A DNA stretch of 21,723 bases from a virus: IMG/VR virus record IMGVR_UViG_3300042874_000109, positions 1 through 21,723 of that record. The stretch is one strand, 5' to 3'. Shown piece after piece: positions 1,641 through 21,218 of this stretch. Numbering within the stretch: the stretch's first letter is position 1; the number at the start of each line of letters is the position of its first letter. Under the pieces are notes generated by a model, which ran no database searches, had not been told where the DNA came from, and saw nothing but the letters and a program-made list of their open reading frames with translations. Position numbers and translations under genes: made by a program.

Positions 1641-2690
1641 ATGGCATTAGTTCATGCTGACGGTTTCGACAAGTACAGCGCGGGTGTAGCAGACACTGCT
1701 CGGATTGGAAGGCGCGGGACTAAAGTCGCGCTTTACTTTGAGTCCACTGGTTTCCCAGGCAACCAAGTGACTATAGTCGCCGGTGCTGGCAGGTTCGGCA
1801 ATAACGCTGCCCGATTTGAGGCTGCGACTTCTGGGGGCGTGAACTACTCCGTAGAGTTTTCAGCAGCAGCGACAAAAATCCGTGCTGGTTTTTGGCTTAA
1901 ACAGGGTGTAGGGGGTAGTTCATTAGGGTCAGTTGGGGCCGCATTCGGAGGCTTACCAGTCGAGCAGGACCTTACGCCTACGCACTTACTCGCTGTACAG
2001 TTAGTGACATTTAAGGTGTTCGTTGCTGGTGTACAGTTGACCACCCTCAGTAATGATCTATGGCGGTGGATAGAGATCGAGCACAACTCTGTTAATTCCA
2101 CAGCTACTCTGTACATAGATGGCTTACTTATAGGTTCTGTTGGTGGGATTACTCGGACATCTAACTTCATTTCTGTTGGTGCATCGGGGATTGTTGGTTC
2201 AGCCTCTGTCTCTCTTATAGATGATATTGTGTGGTGGGATAATCTAGGGACGTCACTTAGCTCTTTCCCAATCGGCCCACAGCGGATTGCTACCTTGGTC
2301 CCGGATGCCCCAGGCACTACCACGCAGTTCGCTCCGGCCTCTGCAACAAACTGGCAGAGCCTTACTGGCTCGGGGGCGTTTGGCGGCACAGGCAACCTCG
2401 GTACGACCACGCCGCTGCTGGACTACGTCCGTGTCAGTGACTTACCGTGGGCCCCCTTCTCGGGCTCAGGTGCAGTCGCCTTCGTTGCGCTCACTGACGT
2501 AGGGCAGCCAGGGACCTCGCTCCGACCACGCCTCTCTTTGGGGGGCACGGAGTACATTGGCGATCCCATTGCAATTCCTGTGTTCCAGAGCGAGATTCAC
2601 GCCACACCCACAAGCAGTGGGTCGTCCGCTGGATCAGCCCCGTCAATCTTGGACTTCAACAACGCCCAAGCCGGATACGAGATAGTCTAA
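1641..2690 (+). CDS. LamG/concanavalin-like phage structural protein, paralogue
   Basis: The 349-residue protein opens with MALVHADGFDKYSAG, the typical start of phage proteins with a concanavalin-like fold (short strand, then DGFDxY). A later segment reads LWRWIEIEHNSVNSTATLYI and then DGLLIGSV. This is the same W-x-E plus V-x-DG-x-x-x-G core seen in the preceding gene, indicating duplication and divergence. AGGAG lies 7 bases before the ATG. The C-terminus ends in a Ser-Gly-Ala linker (TSSGSSAGSAPS) also seen in the next protein as GSSAGSAPG. It is probably a virion surface component. No catalytic motif is visible. Confidence 0.78.
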   Translation: MALVHADGFDKYSAGVADTARIGRRGTKVALYFESTGFPGNQVTIVAGAGRFGNNAARFEAATSGGVNYSVEFSAAATKIRAGFWLKQGVGGSSLGSVGAAFGGLPVEQDLTPTHLLAVQLVTFKVFVAGVQLTTLSNDLWRWIEIEHNSVNSTATLYIDGLLIGSVGGITRTSNFISVGASGIVGSASVSLIDDIVWWDNLGTSLSSFPIGPQRIATLVPDAPGTTTQFAPASATNWQSLTGSGAFGGTGNLGTTTPLLDYVRVSDLPWAPFSGSGAVAFVALTDVGQPGTSLRPRLSLGGTEYIGDPIAIPVFQSEIHATPTSSGSSAGSAPSILDFNNAQAGYEIV

Positions 2691-2691
2691 C

Positions 2692-3399
2692 ATGGCCATT
2701 TCATTTGAGATCAGAGGGGCATGGGCTACCTTCGGGGAGGACGCCCGAAACGTAGACACCCCAGTAGTCACTATACAGGGGGCGTGGCTGGAGGCGGTGG
2801 CCTCTAATACTATCTTCGGCACACCCAGAATTACCGTACAGGGAGCGTGGCTGGAAGCAGTGGGCTCATCAGCTGGAAGTGCCCCCGGTATTAGCTGTAA
2901 CCCCGGCACCGCGGATAACTTCACACTCTCCTTCACTGGGCAGATACATGATCGGGACTCCCGTATTGACTTCTTAGCTGACCAAGGCATTACCCGTAGA
3001 GTGTCCCTTATCCCGTTCAACGCTACGGACCACATCCTGGAGTACCAGTACGAGGGGCTGCTTATTCAGTCTAGTCCGCTCGCACTCCCGATTAACACCA
3101 CGTTCGTGTGCCTGTTAACCGTAGACAACCCAACGGTTACCCTGCGGTTCAATGGGGCCACTATCACCACGTCTACTGTACTCGGTGCCCTGAACGACGC
3201 CACGTCTGTTCTGAATCTGCGTAGCATTCAGGGTATCCTGTTAAATGAGACCGCAGTCGTAAACTGGACCCTAGGCGAACTCGTGCTGGCTAAGAACCTG
3301 TCCTCTAACCAGCTTATCGACTTAGAGATTTGGCTAACTTGCCGCTGGCAGGGGGCTGGTCTGACTGAGGACGACAGGTACTGCTTGATCGAATTGTGA
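2692..3399 (+). CDS. LamG-like structural protein with N-terminal 21-residue repeats
   Basis: The protein has 235 residues. Residues 3-66 are three tandem units of about 21 residues, each with an I/V-x-I/V-x-GAW core; the second and third share QGAWLEAV. A Ser-Ala-Gly linker follows, then a domain of about 165 residues. That domain ends with LGELVLAKNLSSNQLIDLEI and WLTCRWQ, which matches the closing strand and helix of concanavalin-like folds (E-x-x-x-x-x-x-x-L-S-x-x-x-x-x-x-x-x-YL-x-x-W). ATG 2692 follows the previous stop by one base, suggesting coupling. The role is probably an adhesin-like virion protein in the tail region. Confidence 0.75.
   Translation: MAISFEIRGAWATFGEDARNVDTPVVTIQGAWLEAVASNTIFGTPRITVQGAWLEAVGSSAGSAPGISCNPGTADNFTLSFTGQIHDRDSRIDFLADQGITRRVSLIPFNATDHILEYQYEGLLIQSSPLALPINTTFVCLLTVDNPTVTLRFNGATITTSTVLGALNDATSVLNLRSIQGILLNETAVVNWTLGELVLAKNLSSNQLIDLEIWLTCRWQGAGLTEDDRYCLIEL
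2698..2889 (+). repeat. Three tandem ~21-codon repeats inside a structural gene
   Basis: Residues 3-24, 25-45 and 46-66 of the 2692 gene align as repeats with the shared core I/V-x-I/V-x-GAW. Units two and three share QGAWLEAV and are closest to each other also at DNA level (GCGTGGCTGGAGGC/AGC). Unit one is more diverged. This looks like a short module grown by unequal duplication. Confidence 0.7.
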
Positions 3400-3405
3400 G
3401 GCGAT

Positions 3406-3588
3406 ATGAACAACCGTAACTTTTTCGGCACTACATTCCGTCCGCGGACAGAGAAGCTGTCCTTCCGGCAACCGGAGGGGCCGCACCTAGCCTCCTTGCC
3501 CCCGCAGAGAGTATGGAAGCTGGGCTTCGATGATGTCCGTGTCCGGGACTTACCCCTGCACTTTATTGGAGTACCTAATGGCATCTGA
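3406..3588 (+). CDS. Hypothetical 60-residue protein between structural genes
   Basis: This short basic protein ([18 protein letters not shown]...) is not one I recognise. It starts 7 bases after the preceding stop, with a GAGG-type ribosome site overlapping that stop, and fills an otherwise empty interval of 178 bases. Its last 11 bases overlap the start of the first collagen-like fibre. The sequence is rich in Arg, Pro and aromatic residues and has no membrane segment or Cys motif. Position suggests a small tail or fibre accessory protein. It could instead be non-coding spacer, but the well-placed start and tight packing favour a gene. Confidence 0.55.
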
Positions 3589-5032
3589 ATTTACTGTGGG
3601 TGGGCGGGCCCCCACACTCGAGGAACAGGGTATCATCCTGACGGCCCTGGGTATTGACCCGCTTCAACTCGAGGGTGACCCCGGTCCTGCGGGTCCTGTG
3701 GGTCCCCCCGGACTTACTGGTCCAGCTGGTCCTCCTGGTCCGACAGGTGCTGCTGGCCCCACGGGGGCTGCAGGGGCCACCGGGCCTGCTGGTACTACAG
3801 GGGCTCAGGGCCCGCCGGGCCCGACTGGAGCTACTGGCCCTGCCGGAACTGCCGGTGCTACTGGTCCTACAGGAGCCCCGGGCCCTATGGGATCCGTGGG
3901 CCCGACTGGTCCTGCTGGAGCTACGGGTCCCGCCGGTGCAGCCGGAGCCACGGGTCCTGCCGGAGCTACTGGAGCGACAGGTCCTGCTGGGGCCGATGGC
4001 GCGGGTGCAGGCGTACCGCCCACTGATGGCGCGTTCCTCGTCGGGGACGGAACGGACTTTGTGGGGGAGGTAGGGGCAACTGCACGCACCAGTATTGGTC
4101 TCGGGACCGCTCATGCAGTGAGCTTTTCTGCGGTAAACTCATCCGGGGCGATTACGTGCGGTGATCCAGATGCAGTGGTGACGCAGCTTACTGTTCGGGG
4201 GGGATCAGGCGGCGCACCGATGTTTACACTAGATAGGACAGTCGGTTTACCTTCAACGTTCACGTTTATACTCTCGAGCAACGGATTAGTTTTTAATGAT
4301 GTTACCTCCAGCCAGGCTATCTGCAGCCTGTTCGCTAATACCAGTATGAATGAGCTGTATATAGGAAATAAATTAGTCGGCGCTGTTAAAAACAGACCGG
4401 CGTTACTCTCATCTACTACACAGTCGTCAGCAGCCGGGGCTAATTTGCCGGGTAACGATCTAAATCTACAGGCAGCGGGCGGCACAGGCTCTGGGGTTCC
4501 GGGCGATATCATCATTAAAACCGCTACAGCATTGGCATCCGGCACTACAGCACAGACAGCTATTAATCGTGTGGTTGTCCGAGGCGGGTCCGGGAACATG
4601 GGTGTCGGCACTAGCACACCGGCCCGAAAGGTCGACGTTATTGGGGACATAGGCGCGACTACCGGGATTAGGGTTACAGGCGCAACTGGCACAGTCGGGT
4701 ACACCACTGGGTCGGGTGGGGCTGTAACACAAGCCACTAGCAAGAGCACCGGGGTTACTCTCAACACCCCCGCAGGCACTGTCACGACTAATGCTGCTAG
4801 CCTAGCTGCCAGCACTGCTGTGACATTCACTGTTACGAACTCTCGGGTTTCAGCTACTGATTGCGTGTGCGTGTCTATCCGCGCAGCAGGGGCAACGGCC
4901 GGGGCGTACGATGTGACCGCTAGTGCAGTAGCTGCAGGGAGCTTCGCCGTAACCATCCGTAATATGACGGCTGGGGCCTTGGCAGAGACCCTGCAAATTA
5001 ACTTCGTTACTCTTGCTGGCGCTGTGGCTTAG
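3578..5032 (+). CDS. Collagen-like tail fibre protein 1
   Basis: The 484-residue protein has three parts. Residues 1-32 ([18 protein letters not shown]...) are almost identical to the start of the second fibre at 5062 and probably form the attachment module. Residues 33-143 are about 36-37 uninterrupted G-x-y triplets with many GPA, GAT and GPT, expected to form a trimeric collagen-like shaft. The rest is a long beta-rich tip. It includes [16 protein letters not shown], common in phage fibres, and a final ~95 residues ([20 protein letters not shown]...) resembling a recurrent C-terminal tail-fibre domain. The frame is open from 3530, but ATG 3578 has GGAG 7 bases upstream and matches the paralogue's start. 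Role: host recognition or side-fibre shaft. Confidence 0.88.
3674..4006 (+). repeat. Collagen-like G-x-y coding repeat
   Basis: About 36-37 consecutive codon triplets encode G-x-y with no interruption. At DNA level this is a 9-base quasi-periodic, very GC-rich tract (GGTCCTGCT-like units). It produces long false open frames on both strands. Confidence 0.9.
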
Positions 5033-5061: not shown

Positions 5062-6270
5062 ATGGCATCTGAATTCACTGTCGGTGGGAGAGCCCCGACG
5101 CCGGAGGAGCAGGATATAATCCTGACAGCCCTTGGCATTGACCCAATGCAGCTTGAGGGTGATCCTGGTCCCCCTGGCCCAGCAGGTCCGGCTGGTTCCT
5201 CGGGACCCGCAGGCGCTGCCGGTGCTGCTGGCCCAACTGGGGCCACTGGGGCTATTGGCCCTCAGGGGCCTGCAGGCACCCCTGGTGGTCCTCCAGGCCC
5301 GGCGGGTCCTGCTGGCCCCCAGGGACCCGTTGGCCCCACAGGTGCTACTGGCGCTACTGGCTCAGCCGGAGCTACTGGCCCGCAAGGTCTCCAGGGAGCC
5401 ACTGGTCTTACTGGTGCCACTGGGCCAGCCGGTACTACGGGGGCCACAGGGGCCGCTGGCGCTACTGGTCCTGCGGGCCCTACGGGTGCTATGGGGCCTG
5501 CTGGTCCCGCTGGCCCAGCAGGGCCAATGGGTGCGACTGGTTCTGCTGGCGCTACCGGGCCCGCAGGGCCGGCTGGCCCTACTGGTGCGGCTGGTCCAGC
5601 AGGCGCTGACGGCGCTACAGGACCCGCAGGGGCTATGGGACCCGCTGGTGCTACAGGCCCCGCTGGGCCACAAGGTATCCAGGGTATCCAGGGGCCATCA
5701 GGGAGTGGGCTAACGTACTTCGGAGGGGGGATGCAGACGCTACTGACCCCCACTGGCGCAGGGGACGGCGGCGGCTTCGCCTCAAAGGGATCCATATGGA
5801 CTCCGGACGTGAATGTCTCTGTAACTAAGATGGCTTGTGCCTTCACCCCGCTTGCAACAACGGACTCGTACCGCTTTGGTATCGCAGCGATCGATCAGAG
5901 CACCTCAGCTATCACCTCGATACTGTTTCAGACGGCCACTGTCGTGCAGAACACTACAGCACGTGTGCTCAAGACGTTTGATATTAACCCAGCCATTCAG
6001 TTAACTTCGGGGACTAAGTACCTGTTTTACGTCAGCTTCACTAACGCAGCCACTGGCCTGACAGCCGTCCGCGTAGTCGCCGCTGTATCGCCGGGCGTCG
6101 GTCCTAACCTATCTGGGCCGGGGCCAATAGCGTACAACTCCAACGCGCAGTACAACAGTGTGAACTTAGTAGCCGGAAACGTGTTCAGTAGCGCCGGGAC
6201 CGCGGGGGGTTTCGTCATCGGGCCAGTCCGTGGTCACTTCCTCATTGACGATTATGAGGCCCTGTTCTAA
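5062..6270 (+). CDS. Collagen-like tail fibre protein 2
   Basis: The 402-residue protein shares its first ~35 residues with the fibre at 3578, differing at only a few positions. A longer shaft of about 61 G-x-y triplets covers residues 33-216, with a single extra Gly near residue 75 (GTP-G-GPP) as the only break. It ends with [12 protein letters not shown], a frequent exit from phage collagen stalks. The C-terminal ~185 residues are unrelated to the tip of fibre 1 and look like a compact beta domain ([39 protein letters not shown]), possibly jelly-roll or carbohydrate-binding. GGAGG at 5052-5056 sets the ATG. It is likely a trimeric fibre with its own receptor specificity. Confidence 0.88.
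5158..5709 (+). repeat. Collagen-like G-x-y coding repeat, longer copy
   Basis: About 61 G-x-y codon triplets, interrupted by one extra glycine codon near 5284. The tract is longer than that in the neighbouring fibre gene, so the two shafts have probably expanded or contracted independently. Confidence 0.9.
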
Positions 6271-7240: not shown

Positions 7241-7305
7241 GGACGGCCGCTAATTGTTTTCCCTTGTATATACTGGCTGTACTCACACACACTGAAGGAA
7301 CTATC

Positions 7306-7707
7306 ATGTCACAATCCATCTACCACACCCGCCTCGAAACAATCCTGTCCCGTATTGAGGCTGACCCGTCAGTCTGGAATCAAGATAGCTGGCACTGTGG
7401 GACATCTCATTGCATCGCAGGCCACGCACAGATCGATGCTGGCCTGTCCCCTGACAACGTAACGGCCGCTGTCGACGGGGCCCAATGGTTAGGGTTGTCG
7501 CCGGCTGTAGCAAACTGGGCATTCTCGCAGGACCGTACTCTTGAGGAACTGGGTAGCCTCCGAGATTATTATCTCTCGGGCGAATATGACCCAGAAGGAT
7601 TCGACAAGGATGGATTCGACGAGTACGGGTTCGACCGCATTGGATACGACGAGAGCGGGTTAGACGCCGCCGGATTCGATCAAGACGGGGTGCGGCACCT
7701 AGACTAA
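7306..7707 (+). CDS. Hypothetical protein with Cys/His motif and seven xDxxG repeats
   Basis: The frame opens at 7264, but ATG 7306 is preferred because GAAGGA lies 7 bases upstream in the leader type shared by its neighbours. The 133-residue protein has an N-terminal part with WNQDSWHCGTSHCIAGHAQ (residues 24-42) and later AQWLGLSPAVANWAF. This pattern, W-x-C-x-T-x-x-C-x-x-G then a hydrophobic LGL segment, occurs in small uncharacterised phage and bacterial proteins. Residues 94-128 are seven perfect five-residue units [YFL]-D-x-x-G (YDPEG FDKDG FDEYG ...). Such acidic Asp-Gly repeats are common in phage accessory proteins; the function is unknown. Two Cys and two His could bind a metal. Confidence 0.75.
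   Translation: MSQSIYHTRLETILSRIEADPSVWNQDSWHCGTSHCIAGHAQIDAGLSPDNVTAAVDGAQWLGLSPAVANWAFSQDRTLEELGSLRDYYLSGEYDPEGFDKDGFDEYGFDRIGYDESGLDAAGFDQDGVRHLD
7585..7689 (+). repeat. 15-bp coding repeat, seven units (xDxxG)
   Basis: Seven consecutive 15-base units encode [Y/F/L]-D-x-x-G; most contain TTCGAC or TACGAC followed by GG at the unit end. The protein pattern is kept strictly while the two middle codons vary, which suggests selection on the Asp-Gly spacing. Confidence 0.85.
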
Positions 7708-17879: not shown

Positions 17880-18784
17880 ATACAGCCGCGCTTTCTAAGC
17901 GCATGAGCGTGCACCCACTGGGCAACGCTGGGGCCACCCTGCATGTCGACGCTGACGTTGCGGCTTACGTGTACTGCGGGGGTGACGAGACTACCTTGGT
18001 CGCAGCCAAGGGTAATCTGGCGGATGCCGTGGCGACCATGGCCGCGGCCCTCCGAGTTGACAGGGTACTGATGCACCTGACATCCGCGGGCTCGGACAAG
18101 GGCAGTCGATACGAGATGGCGTTCACCAAGCCTTATCAGGGGCAGCGCAGGGGTGGCAGCAAGCCTCGTCTGTACGCCCCTCTGCGGGCTTGGCTGGTGT
18201 CCGAGCCCACGCTGTGCCCGAACATGCAGTACAGCATAACGACCCACGCTGAGGCGGATGACACTATAGGCTGCGGCGCATTGGCTGACTTAGGGGCCGG
18301 CCGCACCCCGTACATCCTGACCAAGGACAAGGACCTACGGATGATCCCGGGGGTGCATGTCAACTGGGACACGGGAACGCGGGTCACCTTAGGGCCGGAC
18401 GTCTTCAGTCTAGTGCACGGGACCAAGACGTACGGCACGGTCTTCTTCTGGGAGCAGATGCTGTCCGGGGATACGGTCGATAACATACGGGGCATCCCCG
18501 GCATAGGCCAAGAGAGGGCGGTGGGCATCCTCAAGCATGTTGGTATGGACAGCACAGCCTTTAGCACCGTGCTCGATCAGTACCGACAGAAGTTCGGGGA
18601 TGCTGCGACCTCCTTGTTCTGTGAGTCAGCGGCCCTCTTATGGATACGCCGGCGTGAGGCAAGCAACCGGTTCGACTTCCTCAGCTGGCTGCGTAATGTG
18701 GACGGCATCTGTCCCGAGGACTTCAATGACGTTCTCGGAGAATACGCGAGGCTTTATGGCAAATCCAAGACGCTTAACGGCTAA
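17873..18784 (+). CDS. 5'-3' exonuclease / flap nuclease (T7 gp6-like)
   Basis: The GTG at 17873 overlaps the upstream stop by 7 bases; ATG 17903 is an alternative start ten codons in, with no better ribosome site. The 303-residue protein has metal-binding acids in LHVDADVA (D26, D28), AEADDTIG (E127, D129, D130) and TKDKDLRMI (D152, D154). SGDTVDNIRGIPGIGQERA (198-216) is the helix-three-turn-helix signature of the PIN/FEN family, with D200 and D203. It would remove RNA primers and degrade DNA during replication, complementing the polymerase, which lacks this domain. Confidence 0.9.
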   Translation: MLDTAALSKRMSVHPLGNAGATLHVDADVAAYVYCGGDETTLVAAKGNLADAVATMAAALRVDRVLMHLTSAGSDKGSRYEMAFTKPYQGQRRGGSKPRLYAPLRAWLVSEPTLCPNMQYSITTHAEADDTIGCGALADLGAGRTPYILTKDKDLRMIPGVHVNWDTGTRVTLGPDVFSLVHGTKTYGTVFFWEQMLSGDTVDNIRGIPGIGQERAVGILKHVGMDSTAFSTVLDQYRQKFGDAATSLFCESAALLWIRRREASNRFDFLSWLRNVDGICPEDFNDVLGEYARLYGKSKTLNG

Positions 18785-19145
18785 GCAACTGACTGAGTGG
18801 CGCACTCGTACTGCGGCCGAGCAGAAGCTACTGTGTGCCCTGTGCGGCGAGCCGTTCAGTGTGGCTAACCCGGCGGTGGCTGACCACGACCACGTCAGTG
18901 GGGTACTCCGGGCGGTCCTGCACCGGGGCTGCAACTCAATGCTAGGCGTACTAGAGAACGGCCGCGCTCGGTACCAACTACGGTCTGACGTGCGATTCGC
19001 CAAGTTCCTGTCGTCCATTCAACAGTACCTGTGGCGGCAGTACGGGGATGACCAGCCGCTGTATCCGACGTTCCGCACTACCGAAGAAAAGAAAGCTTTA
19101 ACTAAGCGTCGGTCTATTAAACGAAAGGTGAATAACATTGAATAA
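18756..19145 (+). CDS. Endonuclease VII-family (HNH/His-Me finger) nuclease
   Basis: The frame is open from 18537, but that part lies inside the exonuclease gene. ATG 18756 has GAGG 4 bases upstream and gives 129 residues beginning MANPRRLTAKQLTEW. It shows C27-x2-C30, then VADHDHVSG (D43-H46), VLRAVLHRGCN (C59, N60) and MLG, the recombination endonuclease VII pattern with a structural zinc and catalytic His. It would resolve Holliday or branched DNA, for example before packaging. A strongly basic tail (ALTKRRSIKRKVNNIE) is likely DNA-binding. It overlaps the exonuclease by 29 bases and the phosphoesterase by 8. Confidence 0.88.
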   Translation: MANPRRLTAKQLTEWRTRTAAEQKLLCALCGEPFSVANPAVADHDHVSGVLRAVLHRGCNSMLGVLENGRARYQLRSDVRFAKFLSSIQQYLWRQYGDDQPLYPTFRTTEEKKALTKRRSIKRKVNNIE

Positions 19146-20868
19146 GCAAAAGCCCCCTGGCCTCAGGATACTGGTTATCCCCGACGCACACGCACGGCCA
19201 GATCACCACAATGACCGCTTCACCGCGCTCGGTAACTTCATTGTGGACAAGAAGCCTGACCATGTTGTGAGCATCGGGGACTGGGCTGACATGGCCAGCC
19301 TGTGCCACTACGACAAGGGCACTGTGTCGGCAGAGGGTCGGCGGTACGTTGATGACATCGACTCAGCGAACGACGCCCTTAAGCGTACTATGGACATCGT
19401 TAATGCTCACCATCGCAAGACTCGGAGAGTCAAGCCGGAGTTTCATATCACGGCCGGCAACCACTGTCTTTTACAATCGCATAACGTTCTCACTAAGGCG
19501 GGCTGGAAGTTCCACACAGAGGTGGAAGTGGGGGACGAAGTGCTCACCCGGAACGCTGACGGCACGGCGGAGTGGAATCCCATTCTTGACAAGTTCGAGA
19601 AGGAGGTAGATGAGCCTATCTACATGTACGACAGCCAGACAGTTTCGCTGGCGTGCACCCAGCCCCACCGGGTTCTGTACCAGACCTCAAGTGGGAAAGA
19701 GACTTACAAGCCCGCCGGGGATATGCCTGACACCTTCGACATAATTTGTTCAGCTACGGCCATGGGCAAACGCGTAGAGTTTTCTGACGACGAGTTGCGG
19801 CTTGCTGCTATTCTGTGCACAGACAGCCATCACACCAAGCTTGGTGGATTTGTGCTGTACCAGAGTGGGGAGAAGGCGACGGTCATCAAGAAGCTTCTTG
19901 ATGACCTCGGGGTGCTATACACGCACCACGTTCGGGACAGGGCTCCGAAGGAGATATGCGGGGTGGCCCTCAAGTCGCATAAAATCGCGCATGAGTTTCA
20001 TGTAGGTGTTGCGCAAGGTGGCCGTGCAATCTGTGCGCGGCTCGGCGTATTGAGCAATCTCAGACTCCCCGAATGGGCCATGGAACTTCCGCAAGATCAA
20101 TGGGAAGTTTTCAAGGACATGCTAATCTTCTGCGACGGGACTACGTACAAAGGTGGGCGGGGGCTATGCATGTTTTACGGCAAGAAGGAGATATGCGAAG
20201 ACTTCATGGGGGCAGCTGTAGCTCATAACGCTAGGGCATCTCTGCGAGAATACCGTCCGGGCCATTGGCGCGTAAATTATGCTTCGGGCCACCACAAATC
20301 TAGAGTTACTGGTTTTCAATCTAGCCTCGTCCCATATACAGGGACCGTGTGGTGTATCTCGGTTCGCAACACCAACTTCTTCACCCGGCTTAACGGCAAT
20401 GTCCATGTTACAGGAAACTGCAACCGCATTGACAGAGCTGCCCAGGCAGACCCGGCCATGTTCGGGAAGCTGTCGATGGATGACTTGCACTTTAAAAAGT
20501 ATGGGTGGAACGTCGTTCCGTTCCTTACGCCCTTGACGCTCGGTGGAGTTTCATTCCAACACTATTATACCTCAGGTACAATGGGCCGACCGATAGGGGG
20601 CCAGAACCACGCTCGCTCTCTGGTCACTAAGAACTTCCAGTCATGCGTGTGTGGGCACAGCCACAGCAGGGACTTCTACGAAGATACTCGGGCCGACGGC
20701 ACGAAAGTAATGGGCCTAGTTGTTGGGCACTACGATGACGGGGTGTCGCACTATACCACTGAGATGAGGCGCTGGTGGTCGGGGCTAGTCATGCTGCACG
20801 AGGTGCACGACGGCAGCTTCGAGCCAGCGTTCTACTCAATCGATTATGTTAAGCGGAAATATCTATAG
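19138..20868 (+). CDS. Calcineurin-like metallophosphoesterase interrupted by an intein
   Basis: TTG 19138 (AAGGTG 8 bases upstream) overlaps the endonuclease stop. The 576-residue precursor has metal-binding motifs split by an intein: VIPDAHARPDH (D16-H18), SIGDW (D48), TAGNH (N108-H109), then, after residues 110-427, CNRIDRAA, and CGHSHSRDF near residue 513. The spliced product would be 258 residues, a usual length. In related phage enzymes the motif reads GNHE-x-RI; here the residue after GNH is Cys, as splicing chemistry needs. Likely substrates are nucleotide or nucleic-acid phosphoesters; whether it serves repair, host takeover or processing is unknown. The last gene before the nucleotide-pool genes. 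Confidence 0.88.
   Translation: MNKQKPPGLRILVIPDAHARPDHHNDRFTALGNFIVDKKPDHVVSIGDWADMASLCHYDKGTVSAEGRRYVDDIDSANDALKRTMDIVNAHHRKTRRVKPEFHITAGNHCLLQSHNVLTKAGWKFHTEVEVGDEVLTRNADGTAEWNPILDKFEKEVDEPIYMYDSQTVSLACTQPHRVLYQTSSGKETYKPAGDMPDTFDIICSATAMGKRVEFSDDELRLAAILCTDSHHTKLGGFVLYQSGEKATVIKKLLDDLGVLYTHHVRDRAPKEICGVALKSHKIAHEFHVGVAQGGRAICARLGVLSNLRLPEWAMELPQDQWEVFKDMLIFCDGTTYKGGRGLCMFYGKKEICEDFMGAAVAHNARASLREYRPGHWRVNYASGHHKSRVTGFQSSLVPYTGTVWCISVRNTNFFTRLNGNVHVTGNCNRIDRAAQADPAMFGKLSMDDLHFKKYGWNVVPFLTPLTLGGVSFQHYYTSGTMGRPIGGQNHARSLVTKNFQSCVCGHSHSRDFYEDTRADGTKVMGLVVGHYDDGVSHYTTEMRRWWSGLVMLHEVHDGSFEPAFYSIDYVKRKYL
19465..20418 (+). other. Intein with LAGLIDADG-like homing endonuclease core
   Basis: Residues 110-427 (318 aa) begin with Cys (CLLQSHNVLTKAG...VEVGDEVLTRN, block A) and end with HVTGN followed by Cys (block G, with a Gly before the terminal Asn where His is usual). 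Block B is ACTQPHRVLY (T174, H177), and block F is TVWCISVRNTNFFTR. Between them lie two LAGLIDADG-like segments: LAAILCTDSHHT (D229) and DMLIFCDGTTYKGG (D333). The first is degenerate. A 120-base sample inside (20221-20340) has 50% G+C against 57% in a sample of the extein (20641-20760), fitting a separate origin. The host gene would be restored by protein splicing. Confidence 0.9.
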
Positions 20869-20876
20869 GGGGGATC

Positions 20877-21218
20877 ATGGCTGAATACGACGAGAAGCTT
20901 AGTACCTCGGAGTCCATCCGGGAGCGTAAGGGTACGGGTAAGCCGAAGCTGGCGAGCGAGCTACTGGCTAAGTTCCCCAGGGCGTGCGCCGCAGTGGCGG
21001 AGTGCTCTAGCTTCGGGGCGCAGAAGTACGGCCTGCAACCTATGGACACTGGATACAAGACCGTGCCTAGTGCCGAGGTCGCGTACTCCGACGCCGCAGT
21101 CCGGCACATTACTGCGTACCTGTCTGGGCAGCAGCTGGATAGCGAGTCCGGTAGGCCGCACCTCGCACACGCTGCGTGGAGCGTACTCGCGGCGCTTGAA
21201 GTTCACCTGGAGAAATGA
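20877..21218 (+). CDS. dATP/dGTP diphosphohydrolase N-terminal-family protein
   Basis: A GGGGG site precedes the ATG. The 113-residue protein shows R-K-G-T-G-K-P-K-L near residues 17-25, SSFGAQKYGLQP (44-55), AYSDAAVRHITAYLSGQQLD (69-88) and SGRPHLAHAAWSVLAALE (91-108). This is the K-P-x-L...FGA-x-KYG...DAA-x-RH...G-x-x-x-D-x-ESG-x-x-HL-x-HA pattern of the family called dATP/dGTP diphosphohydrolase, N-terminal domain (earlier DUF5664). In other phages that family occurs alone or fused to a MazG-like partner. It may adjust dNTP pools; activity as a stand-alone domain is inferred. The next gene follows after 3 bases. Confidence 0.75.
   Translation: MAEYDEKLSTSESIRERKGTGKPKLASELLAKFPRACAAVAECSSFGAQKYGLQPMDTGYKTVPSAEVAYSDAAVRHITAYLSGQQLDSESGRPHLAHAAWSVLAALEVHLEK

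Follow-up and report, generated by a model that had tools for sequence, protein, structure and literature searches.

An intein in the GNH motif of a phage metallophosphoesterase, one codon from the usual insertion point of its relatives

How can an enzyme accommodate a protein element inserted within its active-site motif, when the residue after the insert is a Cys in place of the usual acidic residue? The question is raised by a phage phosphoesterase gene that is interrupted directly after the codons for GNH. Inteins are known in active sites, and their insertion points are usually regarded as fixed per family. The window, i.e. the whole stretch of DNA analysed here, is a virus contig of 21.7 kb. 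Its replication module is podovirus-like and encodes a primase, a DnaB-like helicase, a DNA polymerase of family A (42% identity to Escherichia phage phiKT), an exonuclease and endonuclease VII, followed by the phosphoesterase and a dATP/dGTP diphosphohydrolase-like gene. Location in this module is the only clue to the role of the phosphoesterase in the window phage. When the DNA polymerase and the intein were each used as a single-protein query against viral contigs, no close relative was found. The gene, its parts and its neighbours are as follows.

18771..19145, + strand: endonuclease VII, upstream neighbour (Pfam Endonuclease_7 E 1.3e-9; phrog_423 E 2.8e-29)
19138..20868, + strand: precursor reading frame, 576 aa from a TTG start, metallophosphoesterase interrupted in frame by an intein (phrog_221 E 9e-41 across the insert)
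19138..19464, + strand: N-extein, residues 1-109, ending ...TAGNH (from alignments and column counts)
19465..20418, + strand: intein, 318 aa, C1...N318, precursor C110-N427 (Nhonho gp52 intein homology; AF2 model; PDB inteins at Z up to 23.9)
20419..20868, + strand: C-extein, residues 428-576, CNRIDRAA... (from alignment and column counts)
20877..21218, + strand: dATP/dGTP diphosphohydrolase-like gene, downstream neighbour (Pfam dGTP_diPhyd_N E 8.9e-22)

The TTG start of the phosphoesterase shares 8 nt with the end of the endonuclease VII frame, and a AAAGGTGA stretch lies immediately 5' of it (19125-19145); the overlap and this stretch suggest that the two genes may be translationally coupled. 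Elsewhere in the window, two adjoining long collagen-like (Gly-X-Y) ORFs (3530-5032 and 5062-6270) have near-identical starts, and would on this likeness resemble a pair as in tail-fibre proteins derived by duplication. The ORF at 7264-7707 has a C-terminal short acidic repeat, EYDPEGFDKDGFDEYGFDRIGYDESGLDAAGFDQDGV.

The precursor reads ...FHITAGNH, C110...VHVTGN427, CNRIDRAA..., and the frame is open for all 576 aa. The phrog_221 metallophosphoesterase profile covers residues 9-573 and spans the insert, with matches on both sides of a 318-residue gap; the arrangement is beyond chance. The Pfam Metallophos score (21.8 bits, cut-off 21.5) is barely above threshold. In the N-extein are found motif I, DAH (D16), motif II, GDWAD (D48, D51), and the GNH of motif III (N108, H109); the C-extein supplies, in spliced numbering, motif IV (H157) and motif V, GHSH (H189, H191). 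An earlier note, made from the letters of the DNA, had placed a 318-residue intein at GNH, from Cys to Asn, leaving a 258-residue extein. Its placement is exact to the base, with homology, model and empty sites in agreement, and the frame gives the same extein length (576 - 318 aa). The empty site is best seen in a relative at 61% identity (L014), in which ITLGNHENRIDRAA is uninterrupted: its DNA reads GGC AAC CAC GAG AAC CGC, versus GGC AAC CAC (intein) TGC AAC CGC in the window. Other uninterrupted relatives read GNHENRINR or similar. In alignments to intein-free phosphoesterases such as L014 the block is absent, and a search for intein-free homologues that retain it found none.

All of the elements that the note had named (blocks A, B, F and G, and two LAGLIDADG-like segments, LRLAAILCTDS and FKDMLIFCDG) could be located in the insert. 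The family alignment consists of nine intein rows, across which Cys1, T65, H68, TDS, D224-G225, C297, G317 and N318 are invariant.

19465..19506, + strand: splicing block A with the Cys1 nucleophile, CLLQSHNVLTKAGW; Cys1 invariant in the nine aligned members
19639..19680, + strand: block B, T65-x-x-H68 (CTQPHRV; T65-Q-P-H68); T65, H68 and R69 invariant
19795..19833, + strand: LAGLIDADG motif 1, RLAAILCTDSHHT, catalytic Asp D120; T119-D120-S121 invariant
20104..20145, + strand: LAGLIDADG motif 2, EVFKDMLIFCDGTT, catalytic Asp D224; D224-G225 invariant
20335..20397, + strand: block F, YTGTVWCISVRNTNFFTRLNG, F:4 = Cys297 (VWC297); V295, C297 and V300 invariant
20395..20421, + strand: block G and C-terminal junction, GNVHVTGN followed by C; G317-N318 invariant, with TGN or SGN throughout the family

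Block G (H314VTGN318) has Thr316 at G:5 and the penultimate Gly317, then Asn318 and Cys+1 (N427-C428 of the precursor). Each LAGLIDADG motif has its catalytic acidic residue, D120 in CTDS and D224 in FCDG. An AlphaFold (AF2) model built from nine aligned relatives has a mean pLDDT of 90.3. Its best PDB match is TliVMA (Z 23.9 over 295 residues); matches to PI-SceI and TliVMA span 279-295 residues, I-SceI is also matched, and numerous inteins and hedgehog domains follow at Z 14-24. The insert can thus be modelled with confidence as a HINT splicing domain plus a LAGLIDADG endonuclease domain. The VMA-type inteins TliVMA and PI-SceI share the predicted fold, HINT split by LAGLIDADG (Z 20-24), but are only ~13% identical to the window intein and have an ATPase subunit as host.

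The intein itself is ordinary and of a kind already known. The insert alone matches, over all 318 residues, the intein in gp52 of Mycobacterium phage Nhonho, annotated 'contains intein' (E 4e-36), and the two align end to end at 31-33% identity. Full-length relatives (~31% identity) occur in the RDF/phosphoesterase of ~90 mycobacteriophages, and by homology the window intein is a distant member of this published family. The mycobacteriophage RDF intein (Bethlehem gp51, Nhonho gp52) has 317 aa versus 318 and shares the host-protein superfamily and the GNH motif; common to both are Cys1, F:4 Cys, G:5 Thr, the penultimate Gly, and the LAGLIDADG variant (TDS / DGT). Unlike the RDF intein carriers, the window host gene lies in a non-mycobacteriophage replication module.

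On its sequence the window intein is best assigned to class 1, the hallmarks being Cys1, the C-terminal Asn with Cys+1, block B TxxH and, in the predicted model, the HINT fold. It is very probably a class 1 (Cys1) intein with its own LAGLIDADG endonuclease in motif III of the phosphoesterase, which splices and homes, and whose upstream site is tolerated as Cys. From the sequence anatomy, homology, predicted folds, empty sites and site offset we infer splicing, endonuclease activity, activity of the spliced enzyme, and the following order of events. The intein would have colonised GNH[E/D], the motif III of a metallophosphoesterase encoded in a phage replication module. Once the precursor is translated, Cys110 would attack the His109-Cys110 bond, the N-extein would be transferred to Cys428 (+1), and cyclisation of Asn427 would free the 318-aa intein, leaving a ligated 258-aa phosphoesterase with the junction GNH-CNRIDRAA. 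Before splicing the precursor is plausibly inactive. The endonuclease of the freed intein would cut intein-less alleles, and the element would spread. The Cys may have been pre-existing, in a phage that was an intein-ready empty site, or brought by the intein.

The novelty lies in the site, which on the alignments is one codon off the usual point of the relatives, with the acidic residue replaced. Family scans added six intein types (L094, L095, L109, L110, L114 and L115), which bring the total to eight when the window and mycobacteriophage types are counted; the comparison sequences are mostly unannotated metagenome contigs. A scan of genome contigs with a three-intein alignment gave no match. 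The junctions of the eight types are as follows.

Window: GNH-intein-CNRIDR
L095: GNH-intein-CHRLNK
Mycobacteriophages: GNHD-intein-SRARD
L094: GNHE-intein-CRITR
L114: GNHE-intein-CRISR
L110: GNHE-intein-SRVW
L109: GNHE-intein-CFDS
L115: GNHD-intein-CRVI

Insertion is thus after GNH[E/D] in six of the eight types (GNH[E/D]-C...N-[C/S]) and after GNH in the window and L095 only (GNH-C...N-C). As read from these junctions, two insertion points one codon apart are in use. The mycobacteriophage RDF inteins follow GNHD and have Ser at +1, keeping the acidic residue, whereas the window intein lies one codon upstream and its +1 Cys replaces that residue; because of this offset it is a homologue at the neighbouring site, not an allele of the RDF intein. 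The L094 and L114 inteins (unannotated; 36-40% identical to the window intein) also have phrog_221-type phosphoesterase hosts, but they follow GNHE with the +1 Cys at the next residue, and the acidic residue is kept. The L095 intein (IMGVR 3300047545_000119, unannotated, 38% identical) shares the upstream site, yet it comes from a different phage and clusters with L094 and L114 at the other site: its nearest relative is L094 (53% identical), and in the intein tree it joins L094 (94/93) and then L114 (96/95). Forcing the window and L095 into one clade was rejected (AU p 0.008). The insertion point has therefore likely shifted at least twice, short of proof because the tree is small (12 rows, four of them outgroup inteins) and some branches are long, so that the count could change with more members. 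No report of intein insertion points that differ by one residue turned up in literature searches, which were also empty for actinophage metallophosphoesterase inteins under that wording; subscription journals were thinly covered by both, and a prior report is possible. Another protein of the same phosphoesterase family, L223 (frame 1985-3535), has a different intein-like insert near its C-terminus (IIAGS, CLKQDHKVL...GYPHHN, CYEHDEDY); its GNH site itself is an intein-free GNHC.

What does the Cys mean for the enzyme? As the earlier note had held, the +1 Cys stands where Glu/Asp is usual and the spliced product would read GNHC; junction and alignments bear this out. An acidic residue after GNH is the usual calcineurin-like signature, from which the window departs, but intein-free members with Cys exist too, for which reason GNHC is no bar to phrog_221 membership. 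We know of no metal-ligand role for the D/E of GNH[D/E]. The metal-ligand columns D16, D48, N108, H157 and H189 (D, D, N, H, H) are conserved among 190 homologues and intact in the window. In the signature, Asn is a metal ligand and His serves catalysis (PMC3407115). In view of these roles, the conserved ligand columns and the many intein-free phages with GNHC, the suggestion, made from the sequence alone, that GNHC may alter metal binding is not supported. The window has the canonical His at H18 (motif I) and H191 (motif V); in each of these two columns Gln is found in 159 of the 190 homologues and His in ~30.

Among the 190 homologues GNH is followed by E (154), C (31) or D (5), and never by another residue such as A, S, Q, N or G; the sample includes seven intein carriers, and its last scan was deliberately enriched for C. 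Two of the 31 GNHC proteins are intein carriers; in the two less directed scans, one of 74 distinct rows and two of 69 had GNHC. GNHC without an intein is found in single proteins (L084, L148, L180) and in whole clades, e.g. most of L208-L219, and in two intein-free proteins (L220, L224) GNHCNRIDRA, the predicted spliced junction, occurs verbatim. L159 and L163 proved on checking to have GNHE. An extein tree of 106 rows, built quickly and weak at many forks, gives 11 E/C changes by parsimony and at least 7 by well-supported branches. The intein-free GNHC proteins and the repeated E/C changes argue that GNHC is a tolerated natural variant and that the spliced window enzyme need not be crippled. 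A covarying partner of the E/C position was sought in the 190 homologues, and no column rose above shared-clade expectation. The model of one intein-free GNHC protein (L084, 39% identical to the spliced window product; pLDDT 92), standing in for the window extein, matches LpxH and the Mre11/SbcD nucleases at Z ~14. The related cluster A mycobacteriophage protein is reported to act as a recombination directionality factor (Bxb1 gp47) and to have phosphodiesterase activity (A10ZJ24 Gp48; PMC12287305).

Insertion at the upstream point would be possible because this enzyme family tolerates Cys as the x of GNHx and has evolved it repeatedly. Among intein-free proteins, those nearest to the window (L014, L015) have Glu; on present data, therefore, the Cys of the window lineage seems to coincide with the intein. 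Where, then, did the Cys of the other phages come from? In the window as in intein-free phages, GNHC might be the scar of precise loss of an upstream-site intein or of flank conversion during homing, as opposed to a neutral variant that was there beforehand. Cys is exactly what an upstream-site intein must leave, E, D and C are the only residues at the position although E to C takes three base changes, and L223 (TGT) and L243/L238 (GAA), though close elsewhere in sequence, differ in the entire codon. However, entire clades are GNHC, no intein was found at the upstream site in the GNHC clades, the close pair L223/L243 has no visible conversion tract around the E/C codon of L223, and Cys may simply be the sole other workable residue. 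We regard the scar as a possible but rather unlikely origin. The broader proposal that inteins reshaped a phage active-site motif, by at least two one-codon moves, each changing GNHE to GNHC, with intein-free GNHC proteins as empty sites or scars, is tentative and rather unlikely.

With the class 1 homing intein as the preferred reading, does the window copy still splice and cut, and does it do so constitutively? The penultimate residue is Gly, which had led to the expectation of slow or conditional splicing, and an intein of that kind might switch the phosphoesterase by slow or redox/metal-dependent splicing, with Cys at both splice sites. Conditional splicing has been described for some mycobacterial inteins (PMC6195587, PMC7360933). 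The Cys residues at position 1, F:4 and +1 would suit such a switch, as would insertion within the active-site motif, hence a precursor that is probably inactive. The expectation fails in the nearest experimentally tested relative, Bethlehem gp51, which is ~31% identical to the window intein, has Ser at +1 and lies at the other site: with its native penultimate Gly (position 316) it was spliced completely at time zero, whereas the G316H mutant took more than 5 h for ~50% splicing (PMC5050341). Every family member found has Gly here, which makes it the norm, and nothing about the window intein versus other members predicts slow splicing. A regulatory intein is therefore improbable.

It is more improbable still that the intein has decayed, with its splicing or endonuclease half dead and the phosphoesterase dead or merely cleaved. 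LAGLIDADG motif 1 is off the textbook consensus and had been called degenerate; all nine aligned members share its TDS without variation, and the Asp of the second motif is retained. Wild-type Bethlehem endonuclease was toxic in E. coli, such that a mutation was required (PMC5050341); being toxic, it is therefore active. The mutation that inactivates the Bethlehem endonuclease, R157W, is uninformative either way, as R157 aligns to window His155; R157 and R159 of the window intein, near His155, are invariant across the family. GC3 is 0.62 in the intein versus 0.69 in the exteins, which indicates at most a different origin. Against decay, the frame is open throughout, every family-invariant splicing and nuclease residue is present, the full-length fold is confidently predicted, and the extein metal ligands are intact. 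By these sequence and model data the window copy is a real and probably functional homing intein.

Class 3 inteins are defined by the lack of a position-1 nucleophile and by Trp-Cys-Thr at B:12, F:4 and G:5. A class 3 mechanism, with the first attack by Cys297 (F:4) instead of Cys1 as in the phage WCT inteins, was considered on account of the F:4 Cys and G:5 Thr, which the WCT inteins share (several phage members have the penultimate Gly as well), and the class 3 split intein AceL NrdHF is among the top splicing-domain matches (Z 19.2). This assignment was ruled out, and the mechanism is very unlikely, because a family-invariant Cys1 is present and B:12 is Val70 in place of Trp; F:4 Cys is moreover the second commonest residue there across inteins (PMC4031507), and Kelley et al. 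treat the RDF intein as class 1 (PMC5050341). In Gordonia phages Woes and GordDuk1 and Mycobacterium phage Pinkcreek (L008, L010, L012), with a portal protein, a terminase and an unnamed protein as hosts, the inteins have a Cys at apparent position 1 plus the full class 3 triplet (Trp B:12, Cys F:4, Thr G:5).

The expectation that a penultimate Gly means poor splicing is corrected by this family. Two inteins as close as those of L094 and L095 (53% identical) occupy neighbouring points, one codon apart, in one motif, and the choice of insertion point determines whether the enzyme retains its acidic residue. With the natural intein-free GNHC proteins, these phages offer a small, testable system for the drift of homing sites and for the limits of active-site alteration. 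If inteins did reshape the motif, one could read their past gain and loss from the GNHE or GNHC of an enzyme.
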